Part shown: piece by piece, positions 24,320 through 37,429 of the stretch | How the letters are laid out: the number at the start of each line of letters is the position of its first letter | Position numbering within the stretch: position 1 is the first letter of the stretch | Source: a virus | Virus record (IMG/VR): IMGVR_UViG_3300033145_000333 | Span: 1-46,311 of that record | Direction: 5' to 3' (one strand) | Length of the DNA: 46,311 bases | Notes under the pieces: model-generated | The model's input: the letters and a program-made list of their open reading frames with translations, nothing else | What the model was told of the DNA's origin: nothing | The model's database searches: none | Program-made: the position numbers and the translations under genes

Positions 24320-24610
24320 AATATTTTTCCTCCTATATAATAACCCTTAAAGAGTTATATATTTATATATAAGTCAAAGTAGGCATAGAAATACTATGTC
24401 AGGAATAAATAATGTAAACCTTTAAAATGTTATGTTATAGGACAATATACCACCTAACTCCTAAAAATTCTGGGAAAAATTTTGGAGTATTTTTAAAAAA
24501 GTAATAGCTAAATAGTGAGGTGACAACACCCACCTATAATGTAATTAACTATATATACATCATCCCTAATACCCCGTACCATAGGATTTTTTGTACTGAC
24601 ACGGGCTGAT

Positions 24611-24620
24611 AGTATAACAT
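24611..24620 (-). promoter_or_regulatory. Candidate late promoter, extended -10
   Basis: On the minus strand this reads ATGTTATACT, the same extended -10 box used by two early promoters (29702 and 31989). No TTGACA-like box lies 17 bases upstream, which is typical of activator-dependent promoters. It points to the terminase genes about 290 bases downstream. Confidence 0.4.
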
Positions 24621-24658
24621 GTGCTGTGATGTATATTATTATAGTATAGTATGACGTG

Positions 24659-24680
24659 ATGTTCATAGGATAGTGAACAT
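24659..24680. repeat. Inverted repeat, operator candidate
   Basis: ATGTTCA (24659-24665) and TGAACAT (24674-24680) form perfect 7-bp arms with an 8-bp spacer. It lies just upstream of the candidate leftward promoter, a sensible place for a dimeric regulator. The only regulator-like protein seen is the HTH candidate at 732. Confidence 0.5.
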
Positions 24681-25088
24681 TAAGCAGGGCAAACTCGCAG
24701 GCTCTCAAGCCCAGATATATATGTATGACCCCATGACATTACAGGGCAGGGCAGAACACAGGACATAGATGTATCATAGTGTTACAAGCGGAACTCATTC
24801 CTGTTATAGTTGCCTCCATACTTGCCTGCTACTGCACGAACTCATACTTATGCGACTTCTAACACCCCTGAAAATTTGCCCTCTGCCTGCTAATACCCAT
24901 AACTATATCCAATTACACCTAATTACACCTAATAACCATTAGATTTATAATAATTATGTTAGTGTTGGAGATAGAGATAAGGTAAAATGCTGAACCCATT
25001 TACTATATAACTAATGTATATAACCTACATAATCTATATAATTAGCATAGGTATAACTAACATAAGTATAGTTTAGATGTAGATAAGG

Positions 25089-25229
25089 CAACATATATTA
25101 TAACAACATATATACTAAGAGGGCTTAAAACTCCTAAAAACAACATATATGTAGAGAGGGGAATGTTATATTAATAGTATAGTTTTTTCATGGAGAATGA
25201 AGATAATAATAGATAAATACAACATATAT
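25089..25229 (+). repeat. Four CAACATATAT direct repeats
   Basis: Identical 10-mers start at 25089, 25104, 25141 and 25220, the last ending about 50 bp before the first early -35 box. Three are part of a longer ACAACATATAT. The core ACAACATA recurs twice in the 28.4-kb repeat region. They could be iterons or operator sites. In AT-rich DNA some recurrence is expected by chance, but four exact copies in 141 bp in the control region is notable. Confidence 0.5.
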
Positions 25230-25277
25230 ATTGTATTATTATAAGGTAAAATACTTTAAAAAACATTGCATATTTAC

Positions 25278-25306
25278 TTGACAAGAGTGTAATATTATGC
25301 TATACT
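25278..25306 (+). promoter_or_regulatory. Early promoter 1 (sigma70)
   Basis: TTGACA (25278-25283), a 17-base spacer ending TATGC, and TATACT (25301-25306). This is a perfect -35 with an extended -10. It drives the first rightward gene 31 bases downstream. Confidence 0.88.
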
Positions 25307-25336
25307 TATATTATAGACAAAGAGGGGAGCAATAAT

Positions 25337-25606
25337 ATGGAATATCTACTGTTAGAATATCCTGAATCAGACAGTAAGAGTTTTGCATTATGTATTAATG
25401 AGAAAGATAAATGGAGAGTAATTGTTTACAAAGAACTAGATGGAAAAACACAAGTAGACCTGCAACATGAGAATAACAAAGATATTGTATATATGGACAT
25501 ATCAGACATAAGTAAATCAAACTTAGATATACCTTCTTATGTAAGGGATCTAATAGATGAAGCTTATCTAGGAATAATGAATAATTGGCTTGACAAACAT
25601 GCATAA
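25337..25606 (+). CDS. First early protein, unknown
   Basis: This 89-residue protein is the first product of the rightward block and is preceded by GAGGGGAG. It is acidic and alpha/beta (FALCINEKDKWRVIVYKELD, DIPSYVRDLIDEAYLGIMNN). Its immediate-early position behind a consensus promoter suggests a host-takeover or anti-defence factor. No family is recognised. The second early promoter overlaps its 3' end. Confidence 0.65.
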   Translation: MEYLLLEYPESDSKSFALCINEKDKWRVIVYKELDGKTQVDLQHENNKDIVYMDISDISKSNLDIPSYVRDLIDEAYLGIMNNWLDKHA

Positions 25607-25618
25607 ATATGCTATACT
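25590..25618 (+). promoter_or_regulatory. Early promoter 2 (sigma70)
   Basis: TTGACA (25590-25595), 17 bases, TATACT (25613-25618) with upstream TATGC. The -35 lies inside the end of the preceding gene. It serves the metalloprotease-like gene at 25648. Confidence 0.87.
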
Positions 25619-25647
25619 TATAATAGAAAGAGAAAGGGGATAATAAT

Positions 25648-26076
25648 ATGAAATATCTATCTACAACAAAAGAAAGAGCAAAAAGACTTCATAAACCTTC
25701 ATATATAGATGAAATTCATAAACATGCTAAACAAAATAATGTATATATTGAACTAAAACTACAAAATTATAGTTATTTTAGAATAACTGACCCTAATTGT
25801 ATATTTTTAGGAGTATCAAATAATTATAATAAAGAAGTTGTTAAACGTATATCTAAAAAGATAGGGTATAATAAACTAGATATAATAGTTGAATATTTAC
25901 ATGAATATTGTCATTTAGTAGATAATAAAAAAAATAGTGATAGATTTTATAGTAGATTACAAAATTATGAAACTGCTAATACAGAAAAAGAAATTATAGC
26001 ATTATATACTACACATAAAAGTGAATTATTAGCAATTAGATTTGCAAGAAAATATAGAAATAGATTTAAAGTATAG
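25648..26076 (+). CDS. Zincin-like metalloprotease candidate (HEYCH)
   Basis: The protein has 142 residues. HEYCH (85-89) follows an Ile-rich helix (LDIIVEYLHEYCHLVD), fitting the HExxH zinc site. A downstream helix has Glu126 (HKSELLAIRFARKY), a candidate third ligand, as in ImmA/IrrE- or SprT-type small zincins. Such phage proteins may cleave host regulators. It has its own promoter and is transcribed early. No signal peptide, so it would act in the cytoplasm. The motif is visible; catalytic activity and target are inference. Confidence 0.6.
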   Translation: MKYLSTTKERAKRLHKPSYIDEIHKHAKQNNVYIELKLQNYSYFRITDPNCIFLGVSNNYNKEVVKRISKKIGYNKLDIIVEYLHEYCHLVDNKKNSDRFYSRLQNYETANTEKEIIALYTTHKSELLAIRFARKYRNRFKV

Positions 26077-26107
26077 ATTTAAAATATAGAAAGCGAGGAT
26101 ATTTGTT

Positions 26108-26206
26108 ATGTTATATATAACAGGATTAATAGCAGATATTATAACATATAGTATAACATTTGTATTAATAGTATTATTTATAATAGACTTAAATATTCCA
26201 AAATAA
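26108..26206 (+). CDS. 32-residue membrane peptide
   Basis: A short frame, mostly one hydrophobic span (GLIADIITYSITFVLIVLFI), preceded by GAGGA 8-9 bases upstream. It sits between two early genes in the same direction. Function unknown; existence rests on the ribosome site and clean hydrophobic profile. Confidence 0.5.
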   Translation: MLYITGLIADIITYSITFVLIVLFIIDLNIPK

Positions 26207-26219
26207 TTTAACAAAAGAC

Positions 26220-26248
26220 TTGACAAAGCAACACTTATATGCTATACT
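26220..26248 (+). promoter_or_regulatory. Early promoter 3 (sigma70)
   Basis: TTGACA (26220-26225), 17 bases, TATACT (26243-26248) preceded by TATGC. The box sequence is identical to promoters 1 and 2. It drives the gene pair at 26272-26753. Confidence 0.87.
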
Positions 26249-26271
26249 TAGATTGACAGGAGGATAAGATA

Positions 26272-26523
26272 ATGAGAAATAACAAACAACAAACTAATAA
26301 CCTTAATAAACTAAGTCTCGCCGAAAGATACATCAAAAAACTAGATACAATGATAGAGAAAGAATATAAATATCTTATACAAAGACATCATGAACATATT
26401 GCAAGGGAATTACTGCATATAGGCTGTATTATGCACTTGTCTGCTGTATTGTATCATATTAGTGGTATATGTAGGGAATTGATACTAGGAGTGAAGGAAA
26501 TAAAGAGGAGGATTAAGCTATGA
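26272..26523 (+). CDS. Helical partner of 26520 gene, unknown
   Basis: This 83-residue helical, basic protein (LSLAERYIKKLDTMIEKEYK; HHEHIARELLHIGCIMHLSA) has its stop overlapping the next start as ATGA. AGGAGG precedes the ATG, behind promoter 3. Tight coupling with a small DUF4258-like protein resembles two-gene toxin-antitoxin or anti-host modules. That is inference; no domain is recognised. Confidence 0.6.
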   Translation: MRNNKQQTNNLNKLSLAERYIKKLDTMIEKEYKYLIQRHHEHIARELLHIGCIMHLSAVLYHISGICRELILGVKEIKRRIKL

Positions 26524-26753
26524 TTAAAGAATTTAGTCTTCATTCATTACAACAAATGCATGACAGATTTAAGGGACGGAAAGAAGTTCTTGATCTTGTA
26601 AGACACGGACAACTAGAAGATTATAGATATATCAAGACTTATGTACAGAATGACGAAACAAGAAAGCTTTATGAAATACAACACAATGTATATATTGTAT
26701 TAAATATGGACGATAGGCTTATAACTATATTTGAAAGGTATAAAAATGTATAG
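26520..26753 (+). CDS. DUF4258/RelE-like small protein
   Basis: The protein has 77 residues. The pattern FSLHSLQQMHDRFKGRKEVL, V-x-x-G-x-L, then YEIQHNVYIVLNMDDRLITI matches the layout of DUF4258 / RelE-ParE-like folds: an N-terminal H-x-x-x-R-M-like helix, then a beta sheet ending in IxTIFE. Those families include RNase and gyrase toxins. The start overlaps the upstream stop (ATGA). The fold is a by-eye match and no catalytic set is confirmed. Confidence 0.45.
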   Translation: MIKEFSLHSLQQMHDRFKGRKEVLDLVRHGQLEDYRYIKTYVQNDETRKLYEIQHNVYIVLNMDDRLITIFERYKNV

Positions 26754-26765
26754 GAGGTAATAATT

Positions 26766-26903
26766 ATGGATTATGTTAAAATGTTAGAAAACAGGATAGA
26801 AGATTTAAAAGCAGTAAAAAAACATTTAGAAAATGAGTTAGATAATATAATTAGTGAAATAGATGATTTAGAGGTAGAAATAGTTAGATTAGAAAATACA
26901 TAA
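26766..26903 (+). CDS. 45-residue coiled-coil protein
   Basis: The gene encodes a single heptad-rich helix (MLENRIEDLKAVKKHLENEL and on), with AGGAGG upstream. It may dimerise. No function can be assigned. Confidence 0.6.
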   Translation: MDYVKMLENRIEDLKAVKKHLENELDNIISEIDDLEVEIVRLENT

Positions 26904-26926
26904 GAATATATAAGAAAGGTTATATT

Positions 26927-27244
26927 ATGGATAATATTAAACTAGATAATACAATTATATTATATGTTCCTATAATAGAAGGTAAACATAATATTATTGA
27001 ATATACAATAGGTAGATTAATTGACTGGTTTGGTGGTATAACAACAACAGAGGGCTTTGGGTATTGGAAAGATGATAAAGGTAATATAATTGAAGATGAT
27101 ATTTTGTTAATAAATATTAAAGTAACAGAAGAAATCCTTATGAGGTATACTGTATCAATTAATATATTGTGTCAAATTCTTAAAAAACAATTAAATCAAG
27201 ATTGTATTGCTCTTGAGATTAATGGAGAAATGAAATTATTATAG
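26927..27244 (+). CDS. Early protein, unknown
   Basis: The 105-residue alpha/beta protein has NTIILYVPIIEGKHNIIEYT, a segment GRLIDWFGGITTTEGFGYWK that recalls small phage host-interaction proteins, and a helical C-terminus. AGAAAGG precedes it. No family recognised. Confidence 0.55.
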   Translation: MDNIKLDNTIILYVPIIEGKHNIIEYTIGRLIDWFGGITTTEGFGYWKDDKGNIIEDDILLINIKVTEEILMRYTVSINILCQILKKQLNQDCIALEINGEMKLL

Positions 27245-27258
27245 GAAAGGGGAATATA

Positions 27259-27423
27259 ATGAAAACTTTAGTAGAAAATAAAGAGTATAATGGTGCTAAA
27301 TATAGAGCAGGACAGCAATCTTTTTATCCTATATATGTTAAGGAGTATATTAAAACAACATTAAAATACAGGATAATAAACTATGTTATCAATTATCTAA
27401 GACGATTAAGATATAAACTATAA
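27259..27423 (+). CDS. 54-residue basic protein
   Basis: The frame encodes a Tyr- and Arg-rich peptide (YNGAKYRAGQQSFYPIYVKE; NYLRRLRYKL), preceded by GGAAAGGGG. It is very basic at the C-terminus and might bind nucleic acid. Unknown. Confidence 0.55.
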   Translation: MKTLVENKEYNGAKYRAGQQSFYPIYVKEYIKTTLKYRIINYVINYLRRLRYKL

Positions 27424-27436
27424 ATAGGAGGCTTAA

Positions 27437-27694
27437 ATGAAGAAATTAATAGCATTTAATAAATTCGAGAAAGCATTTAAAGAAGTAGGCAGAGAAGACA
27501 ATTTCAGCTTAGAAGCCTTAAAATTGTTATATAATCACTATAAAGATAATGATATAAAGGAATTTGATGTTATTGATATGTGTTGTGAGTGGGTGGAATA
27601 TGCAAATGACTTAGAATCTTTAAAATATATAGATTTTACAGAGGGTATAGATTCTTTAGTCGGAAAAACTATTGTTTTATTAAGAAATACATAA
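27437..27694 (+). CDS. Acidic early protein, unknown
   Basis: The protein has 85 residues, is helical and acidic (FKEVGREDNFSLEALKLLYN; DVIDMCCEWVEYANDLESLK), with AGGAGG upstream. Not recognised. Acidic early phage proteins are sometimes DNA mimics or enzyme inhibitors; nothing here proves that. Confidence 0.55.
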   Translation: MKKLIAFNKFEKAFKEVGREDNFSLEALKLLYNHYKDNDIKEFDVIDMCCEWVEYANDLESLKYIDFTEGIDSLVGKTIVLLRNT

Positions 27695-27711
27695 GAAAGG
27701 GGAATAGTATT

Positions 27712-27855
27712 ATGAATATAAATACTAAGACAGTTAAAAGTTGTGTTACATGCAAGTATACATCAAAACAAGGACATTGTAGAAATAAGAAATATACTAT
27801 GGCTTATAAAAAATGTATATGGACTTGTAACTGTAAATATTATGAGATTAGGTAA
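27712..27855 (+). CDS. Cys-rich small protein, paralogue of 35900 gene
   Basis: The protein has 47 residues with six Cys: SCVTCKYTSKQGHC and KKCIWTCNCKYYE. The opening C-x-x-C-K-Y and closing C-K-(Y/D)-Y are shared with the 52-residue protein at 35900, so the two are probably related zinc-binding proteins. A GGGG-type site precedes it. Confidence 0.6.
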   Translation: MNINTKTVKSCVTCKYTSKQGHCRNKKYTMAYKKCIWTCNCKYYEIR

Positions 27856-27972
27856 TACTCTAAAAGCTCCATATCTAGCTTATAAAGCATTATTATTTGC
27901 CAAGTAGTAACACAGCTAAAAAAAATAAAAATAGAACAAGTGTACTATATAATGAACATAGGAGGCAATAGA

Positions 27973-28119
27973 ATGAATTATTATGATATTGGCATAGAAG
28001 AAGACATAAAAGAGTTAGAAAGACAGAAATTAGACAGAGATGAAGAAAGTTTCGGACTTGATGCATGGATTGAAGATGAAATGTTATTATCAATAGAGAA
28101 AGATGAAAGGGGTAAATAA
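27973..28119 (+). CDS. 48-residue acidic protein
   Basis: A strongly acidic helix (YDIGIEEDIKELERQKLDRD and EESFGLDAWIEDEM) preceded by AGGAGG. The 117 bases before it hold no other supported frame. Unknown. Confidence 0.55.
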   Translation: MNYYDIGIEEDIKELERQKLDRDEESFGLDAWIEDEMLLSIEKDERGK

Positions 28120-28121
28120 TT

Positions 28122-28247
28122 ATGTTAAGATTACAGATAGCAAGCTATAATTGGGAATATTATTTAAAACACCCTATAAATTTATATATAGGTAAAAATT
28201 ATAGTGTTTTAAGGTTATTATGTTTAGAATTTCAAAAATATAAATAA
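28122..28247 (+). CDS. 41-residue basic peptide
   Basis: A short frame two bases after the preceding stop, with AAAGGGG upstream. It is aromatic and basic (YNWEYYLKHPINLYIGKNYS). It shows weak overall resemblance in length and composition to the frame at 30250. Function unknown; moderate coding confidence. Confidence 0.45.
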   Translation: MLRLQIASYNWEYYLKHPINLYIGKNYSVLRLLCLEFQKYK

Positions 28248-28866
28248 AAAGCTAAATCACATTAAAATATTATAGTTTTATGGGCTTTTACATAAAAAAA
28301 ACAGGGCTGTAAGTCAAGCCTATACTGATTATAGGGTTATACTATAACGCAAGAACCAAGCCTATACTGGGCTACAGCCCGAAATTGGCAATATTGCAAT
28401 CTATAACAACATAATGAGTGTAGGCAAGGGTTACAGAACGATTTTGCTGTTTTTAGCTAATTTCAATCTATAACAACATAACTAGAATAGGCTTGACCTA
28501 GAGGCTGATTTAGGTAAAAAGAGCAATATAGGGCATACCCCCATAGATATAGAAGGTAAAATAGTAAAGGGGGGTGTCTATAAGGTAATATATATATAAT
28601 ATTATAAGAAAAAACGACCTACAACCCTTGCTGTCATTGATTCTTTTGTTATAGATTTTTTTAGAGGTGTTTTTTAAGAAATCAGGCTAGAACCCGCACT
28701 GATACTAAATAGTTTGTTATAGATTTAAAAAGTGGTAAAAACAGGTAATATCGGCTTGTAAAGCAGGCGTATACTGGTTATATGATTATAGATTGAATCT
28801 ATAACCCTAGAATGAGGCTGAACAAGGGTTTACGGAGAATGACTGTAAAAAATGGAGGTGGAAAGA
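28248..28866. other. Gene-free repeat region, origin candidate
   Basis: No supportable gene in about 620 bases. It contains an 8-bp paired closing element GGGCTGTA (28304-28311)/TACAGCCC (28373-28380) that encloses two CAAGCCTATACTG copies (28315, 28357) and a small hairpin (28329-28347). It also holds the palindrome GCAATATTGC (28388-28397), a C5/G6 pair (28538-28542/28569-28574), and an almost pure A+T block (28579-28614). Five to six copies of a bipartite motif are listed separately. A replication origin or multi-site regulatory region is the best reading. Confidence 0.6.
28398..28830. repeat. Bipartite AATCTATAAC-N20-GGGTT repeat array
   Basis: AATCTATAAC occurs in plus orientation at 28398, 28465 and 28796, and in minus orientation at 28648-28657 and 28716-28725. 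In copies 1, 3, 4 and 5 a GGGTT (AACCC on the inverted ones) sits at exactly the same offset of 30 bases; three of them share CAAGGGTT. A degenerate copy (CTATAAC at 28342, GGGCT at 28369) keeps that offset. Copies 1-2 and 3-4 are 67 and 68 bp apart and mirror each other around the AT block. At 28786-28804 the motif forms a perfect 9-bp palindrome with one central base. Confidence 0.8.
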
Positions 28867-29346
28867 ATGGAAAAGAAAGAATTAAGTGCGGAAATAATAC
28901 AATTTCCTAATAAAATACTATCAAAATCATGTAATAATGTAAGAGAAACTGGGTTTAATAAAGAACTATTAAAAATAGTTAATCATATGCAAATAGTTTT
29001 ACATAAAACATCTAATGGAATAGGATTATCTGCTAACCAAATAGGTATTAGTAAAAGAATTGTAGTATTTAAAAGAATTAATATTAATAATAATACTGCT
29101 CTAATGGATTATATTATAAATCCTGAAATAGTTATAAGAAGTAAAACAAAATTGTTAAGTAAAGAAACCTGTCTAAGCTGTAAAGATTATGAAAATACAA
29201 TTGAAAGATATAGATATATAAAGGTTAAGGGAAAAACCTTTGACAACAAAGTTAGATTTATAGATACTTTTGCAAACAAATTGTTATCTGTAACATTACA
29301 GCATGAAATCGATCATATAAATGGTATTACTATAAAAGATAAATAA
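28867..29346 (+). CDS. def: Peptide deformylase
   Basis: This 159-residue protein carries all three deformylase motifs: GIGLSANQ (51-58), ETCLS with metal-ligand Cys102 (usually EGCLS), and QHEIDH with His146, Glu147 and His150. It removes the N-formyl group from new proteins using Fe2+ or Zn2+. Phage versions are thought to favour processing of phage or organelle-like proteins late in infection. The start at 28867 is chosen because GGAGG lies 8 bases upstream; an ATG 15 bases earlier contains that site. It is the first gene after the repeat region. The Gly-to-Thr change in motif 2 is unusual. Confidence 0.9.
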   Translation: MEKKELSAEIIQFPNKILSKSCNNVRETGFNKELLKIVNHMQIVLHKTSNGIGLSANQIGISKRIVVFKRININNNTALMDYIINPEIVIRSKTKLLSKETCLSCKDYENTIERYRYIKVKGKTFDNKVRFIDTFANKLLSVTLQHEIDHINGITIKDK

Positions 29347-29365
29347 AAGAGGGAGTATTAATGTT

Positions 29366-29530
29366 ATGAAAGAACATATACTAGCAGAATTTACTAATGA
29401 ATTGCGAGATATTGCTATAAAATACAAAGATACTCAACAATTAAGAGATATAATTTCAACTTGTGTTCATAAATATATTAAGAAAAATAAAGACTGGTAT
29501 ACAATATGGAAAAATAAAGAGGAGGTATAA
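29366..29530 (+). CDS. 54-residue helical protein
   Basis: The gene encodes a charged helical protein (MKEHILAEFTNELRDIAIKY then WYTIWKNKEEV) preceded by GAGGGAG. Its final codons GAG GAG GTA form the ribosome site of the next gene. Unknown. Confidence 0.6.
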   Translation: MKEHILAEFTNELRDIAIKYKDTQQLRDIISTCVHKYIKKNKDWYTIWKNKEEV

Positions 29531-29531
29531 T

Positions 29532-29627
29532 ATGTATTTAGAAGATGTTATGTTAATATTATTGATATTAATAGTTGGAATAGGTGTTGTTATTATATTT
29601 AATATAAGAATGTTATCACTTATATAA
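29532..29627 (+). CDS. 31-residue membrane peptide
   Basis: One hydrophobic span (MLILLILIVGIGVVIIFNI) with a strong GAGGAGG site inside the end of the upstream gene. A possible small membrane-acting protein. Confidence 0.6.
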   Translation: MYLEDVMLILLILIVGIGVVIIFNIRMLSLI

Positions 29628-29678
29628 CACAGTAGGGGCAAAATTTTTACTTAATATTGAATTATTTTAAAATAATAC

Positions 29679-29707
29679 TTGACATATGCTTAAAAATATG
29701 TTATACT
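29679..29707 (+). promoter_or_regulatory. Early promoter 4 (sigma70)
   Basis: TTGACA (29679-29684), 17 bases, TATACT (29702-29707) with ATATGT before it. It drives the 62-residue gene at 29734 and genes beyond. Confidence 0.85.
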
Positions 29708-36314: not shown

Positions 36315-36857
36315 ATGGCTAGTTTTAAGGAAATACAAGCACAATATGCAGAAATGAATAAGCCTAAAGAACAAGAAAATACTTATGTACCTTTAGACGG
36401 TATCTATATTATGGAGTTAGAAAAAACTACATATAAAGATATAGAAAGTTCAAAGGATCAAACTATTTGGGGTGTATTGAATCTTCAAGTGAGAATTAAG
36501 AAAGTTGAAGAAGGTACTGGTGGAGCTAATAGAGTAGCTTTTCAATCTTATTTCTTAACACATGGTGATGAAGTACAAGTTATACCTTGTTTAAAAGTTA
36601 AAACATTTTTGGAAAAAGTAGGACTTACTGCTCCTGATATTGCTGCTTATGATAATAGTGCTGCTTATATTAAAGATTTGATAGCAGCAATAGATGCAGC
36701 TAAAGGTACTATTTTTAAAGGTGCAGTTAGACGTGATGAATATGATTCAAAAAGAGATAAAGTATTTGCATTTCAGCCTGCTACTTTAGATGCTATAGTT
36801 GTTACTACTACTAAGACTGAAACTGTAGCTGAAAAAACAGAAGACGATGTAATATAA
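36315..36857 (+). CDS. ssDNA-binding protein candidate (DUF669-like)
   Basis: The protein has 180 residues. A beta-rich core (YVPLDGIYIMELEKTTYKDI; TIWGVLNLQVRIKKVEEGTG) with GGANRVAFQSYFLT is followed by a helical part and an acidic tail ending EKTEDDVI. Acidic tips are typical of SSB proteins. Phage proteins of this build (DUF669-like) are coded beside Sak-type annealing ATPases, as here. Function by context and architecture only. GGAGG upstream. The structured RNA begins 18 bases after its stop. Confidence 0.6.
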   Translation: MASFKEIQAQYAEMNKPKEQENTYVPLDGIYIMELEKTTYKDIESSKDQTIWGVLNLQVRIKKVEEGTGGANRVAFQSYFLTHGDEVQVIPCLKVKTFLEKVGLTAPDIAAYDNSAAYIKDLIAAIDAAKGTIFKGAVRRDEYDSKRDKVFAFQPATLDAIVVTTTKTETVAEKTEDDVI

Positions 36858-36875
36858 ATTACTGCTCAAGAAGAT

Positions 36876-37078
36876 TAATAAAGGTTAAGTTCTTATAAGG
36901 TGTAAGTTAATAACTTACTTTACTATAGATAGACTGGGAATTATCCTTAGTCAGAATAATAGACACCTAGCTGTAGGGTATATAACTTGATTTATATTGA
37001 ATCAAGCGATATGTAATTGTTCCTATATGATGTCGGCAAGTATGGGTTTTATTGGAGATACAGCCTTAACCTTTATTA
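36876..37078 (+). ncRNA. Structured RNA, three-way junction with 14-bp closing stem
   Basis: A gene-free stretch folds into a nested structure. The closing stem is TAATAAAGGTTAAG (36876-36889) with CTTAACCTTTATTA (37065-37078), a perfect 14 bp. The left domain is AGGTGT/ACACCT (36898-36903/36963-36968) enclosing hairpins 36904-36916 and 36932-36952 (8 bp, one bulge). The right domain is GCTGTA/TACAGC (36970-36975/37059-37064) enclosing hairpins 36986-37006 (7 bp) and 37022-37046 (6 bp, one G-U). All helices are compatible and the right domain abuts the closing stem. The 3' arm ends just before the AAGGAG of the next gene, so it may be a cis leader or a separate small RNA. Confidence 0.75.
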
Positions 37079-37096
37079 TACTATAAGGAGATGTTT

Positions 37097-37429
37097 ATGT
37101 CTAAAGCTAAGAAAATAAGAACCTATGAAGAAGTATCTAATAAAGGTAATAAATTACCTGTTAGGTTAGTAGATCCTTGTATTGTCAAAGCTATAGCAAG
37201 TCAACAAAAATTTGGCATGGACAAAGGATATGTTAAAGATTCATGGAAAGTCAAGAACAATATAGAAGAAAGTTTAGAGGCTTTAGAAAGACATCTCCTT
37301 GAAATTAAAGAAGGTAATTGGGTAGATCCTGAAAGTAAGTTGCCTCACATGTATGCTATAGCTTGTAGAGCTATGTATATTATATGGTTTAAACTGCATG
37401 AGAAAGAAAAAGAGGATATGTTATTATGA
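37097..37429 (+). CDS. DUF5664-like dATP/dGTP diphosphohydrolase domain
   Basis: The protein has 110 residues. LEALERHLLEIKEGNWVDPE, then KLPHMYAIACRAMYIIWF, follows the pattern of the phage DUF5664 domain, annotated as dATP/dGTP diphosphohydrolase N-terminal: a HxL-x6-G-x3-D-x2-(S/T)-x-L-P-H core. It would trim the purine dNTP pool. The ATG at 37097 is 7 bases after AAGGAG; an ATG 6 bases earlier is too close. The structured RNA lies directly upstream and may control it. The stop overlaps the next start (ATGA). No catalytic test is possible from sequence alone. Confidence 0.6.
   Translation: MSKAKKIRTYEEVSNKGNKLPVRLVDPCIVKAIASQQKFGMDKGYVKDSWKVKNNIEESLEALERHLLEIKEGNWVDPESKLPHMYAIACRAMYIIWFKLHEKEKEDMLL

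Follow-up and report, generated by a model that had tools for sequence, protein, structure and literature searches.

A perfect 14-bp inverted repeat frames a non-coding spacer in the early gene arm of an orphan phage

Setting and borders of the spacer

What role, if any, does a 233-nt gap between two early genes (36858–37090) play in a phage whose early arm is otherwise so compact that a non-coding stretch of this length is unusual? The window that we analyzed is a whole IMG/VR virus record of 46,311 nt with 28% GC. Its minus strand carries the structural genes, encoding a P22-type portal, a protein with a head-protein match, and a terminase with weak relatives among SIO1-like podoviruses, and every gene between 25337 and 46226 lies on the plus strand. 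The plus-strand early arm, which begins at 25337, consists of recombination and replication genes, among them those for an exonuclease, a Sak4-like annealing protein, a dATP/dGTP diphosphohydrolase-like protein (PF18909), an ERCC4 nuclease, a DUF3987 helicase/primase-like protein, and a DNA polymerase. The spacer lies between the recombination genes (exonuclease and Sak4) and the helicase/primase-like and polymerase genes.

Structural and early arms are separated by a 1-kb divergent non-coding region (24320–25336), in which the GC skew switches and whose predicted fold is not better than those of shuffled sequences. Four near-identical promoters head the early genes (TTGACA-17-TATACT with an extended -10 TG, at 25278, 25590, 26220, and 29679); their sequences suggest that the host vegetative RNA polymerase is used. 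The phage also encodes a peptide deformylase (28852–29346; PF01327, E 9.7e-35) and, at the left end of the window, a Peptidase_C92 protein with a YiiX-like permuted papain fold (102–638).

Judged by sequence comparison, this phage appears to be an orphan without close known relatives, its nearest Sak4 being 51% identical. No IMG/VR relatives were found for the portal, the terminase, the helicase/primase-like protein, the ORF upstream of the spacer, or the gene downstream of it. The polymerase had two IMG/VR relatives only, at 23–26% identity, and Sak4 relatives did not exceed 51% identity in IMG/VR or 48% in GTDB genomes, in searches whose results may lack near-identical records.

On its left, the spacer is bordered by an ORF of 180 amino acids (36315–36857, plus strand), which lies downstream of Sak4 and belongs to no family that we could find; a DUF669-like identity was considered and dropped, since no library supported it. 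On its right lies the gene for the dATP/dGTP diphosphohydrolase N-terminal-like protein (37091–37429, plus strand; PF18909, Pfam E 4.6e-20; phrog_801, E 6.6e-20). The listed start of this gene, ATG 37091, directly abuts the ribosome site AAGGAG (37085–37090), whereas ATG 37097 has normal spacing and is, on our reading of the sequence, the likely true start (37085–37099 for site and start together). The leader would therefore measure about 239 nt. The gap itself has stops in all six frames, and no ORF within it is preceded by a plausible ribosome site, which agrees with an earlier description of the region as non-coding; it is one of only three long stretches in the early arm that lack even a small ORF. 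Its flanking genes are complete and every frame contains stops, on which grounds a group I intron and a decayed gene were rejected. ARAGORN found no tRNA or tmRNA gene in the window.

The closing stem and the interior fold

The first-pass annotation, made from the sequence alone, had proposed a large structured RNA at 36876–37078, closed by a perfect 14-bp stem. This stem is present: the 5′ arm TAATAAAGGTTAAG (36876–36889, plus strand) is complementary at all 14 positions to the 3′ arm CTTAACCTTTATTA (37065–37078), and the predicted pair probability is 0.9–1.0 at nearly all positions. Each arm sits at one edge of the gap, the first beginning 18 nt past the upstream stop and the second ending 6 nt short of AAGGAG, and the inner 12 bp of the arms have TA on either side. 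Within the window, this is the sole perfect inverted repeat of at least 14 bp with arms within 250 nt of each other. A repeat of 14 bp arose in just one of 4000 dinucleotide shuffles of the gap, while 0.27 such repeats are expected per second-order Markov sequence of 46,311 nt; the stem is thus improbable within the gap, yet not rare across the whole genome. No U-run follows the stem, which rules out a simple terminator.

On the plus strand, 36876–37078 has a minimum free energy of -50.5 kcal/mol (z -2.5 to -2.7) and ranks among the top 0.5% of segments of the window once energies are corrected for composition. A z of -2.6 was reached by 5 of 154 background windows. The z value was -1.84 for the whole gap and fell to -0.64 for the interior without the stem (36890–37064), indicating that the excess stability of the plus strand is owed to the stem. 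Accordingly, the expectation that the region outfolds its shuffles held for 36876–37078 as a whole, where 10 of 1000 shuffles were equally good, and failed for the interior, where 106 of 400 were.

Four local hairpins are predicted inside the stem on the plus strand. The first, GTAAGTT-AAT-AACTTAC (36902–36918, 7 bp), has a predicted probability of about 0.86 on the plus and 0.94 on the minus strand; the second, GACTGGGA...TCCTTAGTC (36932–36952), of at least 0.8; the third, CTTGATTTA...TGAATCAAG (36986–37006, 9 bp), of 0.96; and the fourth, CCTATAT...GTATGGG (37022–37046, 7 bp), of about 0.8 on the plus strand. In the predicted ensemble, the closing stem and these four hairpins are the well-supported parts, with probabilities of about 0.8–1.0.

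The annotation had further arranged the interior as a nested three-way junction with two parallel domains. All the complementary words that it named occur in the sequence. The junction itself did not hold up: the left domain helix AGGTGT/ACACCT (36898–36968, plus strand) has an ensemble probability of 0.09–0.16, and the right one, GCTGTA/TACAGC (36970–37064, plus strand), which belongs to the minimum-energy fold, reaches 0.25–0.29, in an interior that folds at shuffle level. A structure forced to hold all the proposed helices has an energy of -49.4 kcal/mol, and since forcing them costs only about 1 kcal/mol, the nested architecture is a possible fold that is not distinguished from its alternatives. 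Pairing by eye overstates architecture in a 28% GC genome; here the outer stem survives the shuffles and the inner junction fails them.

The opposite strand and the role of chance

The minus strand of 36876–37078 folds more unusually than the plus strand, with a z of -4.29 that none of 1000 shuffles matched (whole gap, z -3.47) and that is partly due to its lower G+U content, which depresses the shuffle background. Its predicted fold branches differently from that of the plus strand and has a lower ensemble diversity.

These figures bear on whether the spacer is simply ordinary sequence without a specific function, its 14-bp repeat and weak hairpins having arisen by chance. The 0.27 repeats expected per random window, the plus-strand z values of the interior and of the whole gap, and the background windows that reach -2.6 all speak for chance. 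Chance does not readily explain why the repeat falls in one of the three long non-coding gaps with its arms at the edges, why a gap of 233 nt exists in so compact an arm, or why the minus strand reaches a z of -4.3 while none of the 154 background windows reached -4. We regard chance alone as unlikely, though it retains appreciable weight.

The minus strand also carries a promoter-like sequence, TAGACA-17-TATAAT (37103–37075), that reads into the gap and is one of only eight sites in the window with 11 of 12 consensus matches. An antisense small RNA might start there and cross the gap in the direction of the upstream ORF; the unusual minus-strand fold, with a lower diversity than that of the plus strand, would fit such a transcript. 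Its -10 box, however, overlaps an arm of the closing stem, so the transcript would miss the stem or most of that arm, and from the likely start the z value is only -1.2 to -2.1. The site moreover lacks the extended -10 of the evident promoters of this phage, a terminator was looked for and not found, and the G+U effect accounts for part of the contrast between strands. An antisense RNA is therefore not favored, and we give it little credence.

Relatives of the spacer

No homologue of the spacer was found in IMG/VR, GTDB, or the phage and plasmid collections by DNA, pattern, or model searches. Searches of phage and plasmid DNA up to an E value of 10 returned only short, chance-level matches, the best being 25 nt in Paraclostridium plasmids that spans a short palindrome and lies, in the record that we opened, between ABC-transporter genes. 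Exact spacer patterns were absent from IMG/VR and GTDB, as was a 22-mer of the interior from GTDB genomes. A covariance model, which has low power when built from one sequence, matched only itself across 38 sources. Rfam 15 gave no match at the gathering score anywhere in the window; with E values up to 10 allowed, the sole match was at chance level, on the minus strand (E 0.32, with 20.1 bits where the gathering score is 80). This agrees with the annotation, which saw no match to riboswitch or phage RNA classes in the spacer. Because no homologue was found, the spacer is without evidence of conservation; nor does the window contain a second copy of it.

An inverted repeat suits either strand, and the element could act as DNA. 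It might extrude a cruciform or a hairpin in single-stranded DNA at, for example, a replication origin or a recombination site, or it might be a short relic of a mobile element with terminal inverted repeats and flanking TA. Its position between the recombination genes and the helicase/primase-like and polymerase genes, and the TA on both sides of the inner 12-bp arms, would suit such a role. Against it, the GC skew does not shift at 36.9 kb (the shift occurs at 24–25 kb, where gene orientation changes), there is no second copy in the window, the interior 22-mer is absent from GTDB genomes, and the repeat region at 28.2–28.9 kb is a better origin candidate. A role at the DNA level is accordingly improbable.

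A possible leader of the downstream gene or new RNA class

A non-coding segment of leader size ahead of a metabolism gene recalls riboswitch leaders; unlike them, this one has no Rfam match and no supported ribosome-site switch, and neither a terminator nor conservation was found for it. In a longer sequence context, bases 37088–37090 of the ribosome site are predicted to pair with a CUC upstream of the stem. A candidate anti-ribosome-site word at 36889–36897 carries no weight, its pairing being equalled in 367 of 2000 shuffles. Eight distant homologues of the diphosphohydrolase-like gene, from seven phage records and L001, all had upstream gaps of at most 105 nt, often overlapping or negative, versus 233 nt here; such a leader is therefore not a general companion of this gene. 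The short gaps argue against a ligand-sensing leader tied to this gene, and since the homologues are distant, they lower that idea without removing it.

Large RNAs associated with phages are known, GOLLD and ROOL among them (PMC12286853). The spacer resembles these as a candidate structured non-coding RNA within a phage genome, and differs in being far smaller and in matching no family in the Rfam search. The compact closed outline with its long closing stem, the missing Rfam match, and the adjoining nucleotide-pool gene are consistent with a trans-acting or ligand-binding phage RNA of a new class, excised from the operon transcript or serving as the leader of the nucleotide-pool gene. The poorly supported nested domains, the eight homologues without a comparable leader, the ribosome-site pairing at shuffle level, and the lack of a second copy or relative make such an RNA decidedly doubtful. 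Equally doubtful is the general proposal of a discrete, hitherto undescribed RNA of the phage, about 200 nt long, from either strand, closed by the 14-bp stem, made early in infection and encoded beside the recombination genes. Were the element such a discrete RNA, it would have no relatives and no earlier description; the evidence reaches no higher than intercistronic mRNA structure.

A candidate intercistronic element of the early mRNA

We tentatively favor the reading of the spacer as an intercistronic element of the early mRNA that would affect the downstream gene through processing, stability, or translation, with a probability of roughly 0.45. The early polycistronic mRNA would cross the spacer as an untranslated intercistronic segment, whose ends would form the 14-bp stem around a loop of about 175 nt carrying the four small hairpins. 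The stem would then end shortly before the ribosome site that serves the dATP/dGTP diphosphohydrolase-like gene, and the long duplex may act in cis by setting a cut site in the transcript, in the manner of RNase III cleavage in other phage operons. Alternatively, it may shield one side from decay, or tune access to the ribosome site or keep that site near the upstream CUC.

Several observations favor action in cis. The stem was matched by only 1 of 4000 gap shuffles and has its arms at the gap edges, and the minimum free energy of the plus strand is low (z -2.5 to -2.7). A long duplex occurs in a spacer among co-oriented genes, which are probably co-transcribed, with no U-run behind it; no strong plus-strand promoter was found inside the gap, and the strong promoters of host-like type precede it (25278–29679). 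The same reading is weakened by an interior that folds at shuffle level on the plus strand, by the more unusual fold of the minus strand, by the 0.27 repeats expected by chance, and by the lack of a homologue. Since the interior fold is at chance level and no relative was found, the spacer is most likely a local mRNA element rather than an established new class of RNA. As a structured spacer, it is ordinary or mildly interesting.

Phage operons are known to contain intercistronic stems processed by RNase III, as well as retroregulatory elements; the processing sites of T7 early mRNA and lambda sib are examples. Like these, the spacer offers a long duplex near a gene boundary, in non-coding sequence between the cistrons of an early polycistronic transcript. 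It differs in that a hairpin-bearing stretch of 175 nt separates its arms and in showing no homology to these elements, and its processing is conjectural.

A repeat region elsewhere in the early arm

A second non-coding region, 28240–28850, spans about 610 nt without genes and contains direct and inverted copies of AATCTATAACAA together with CAAGCCTATACTG repeats. Copies of AATCTATAACAA lie at 28398 and 28465 on the plus strand and at 28657 and 28725 on the minus strand, with a spacing of 67–68 nt. The region had no Rfam match, and searches for phage relatives returned nothing beyond a 34-nt chance-level match. Its plus strand folds with a z of about -4.1 to -4.4. This region may be an origin-like repeat array or a large structured RNA, and it is a stronger finding than that at 36876–37078.
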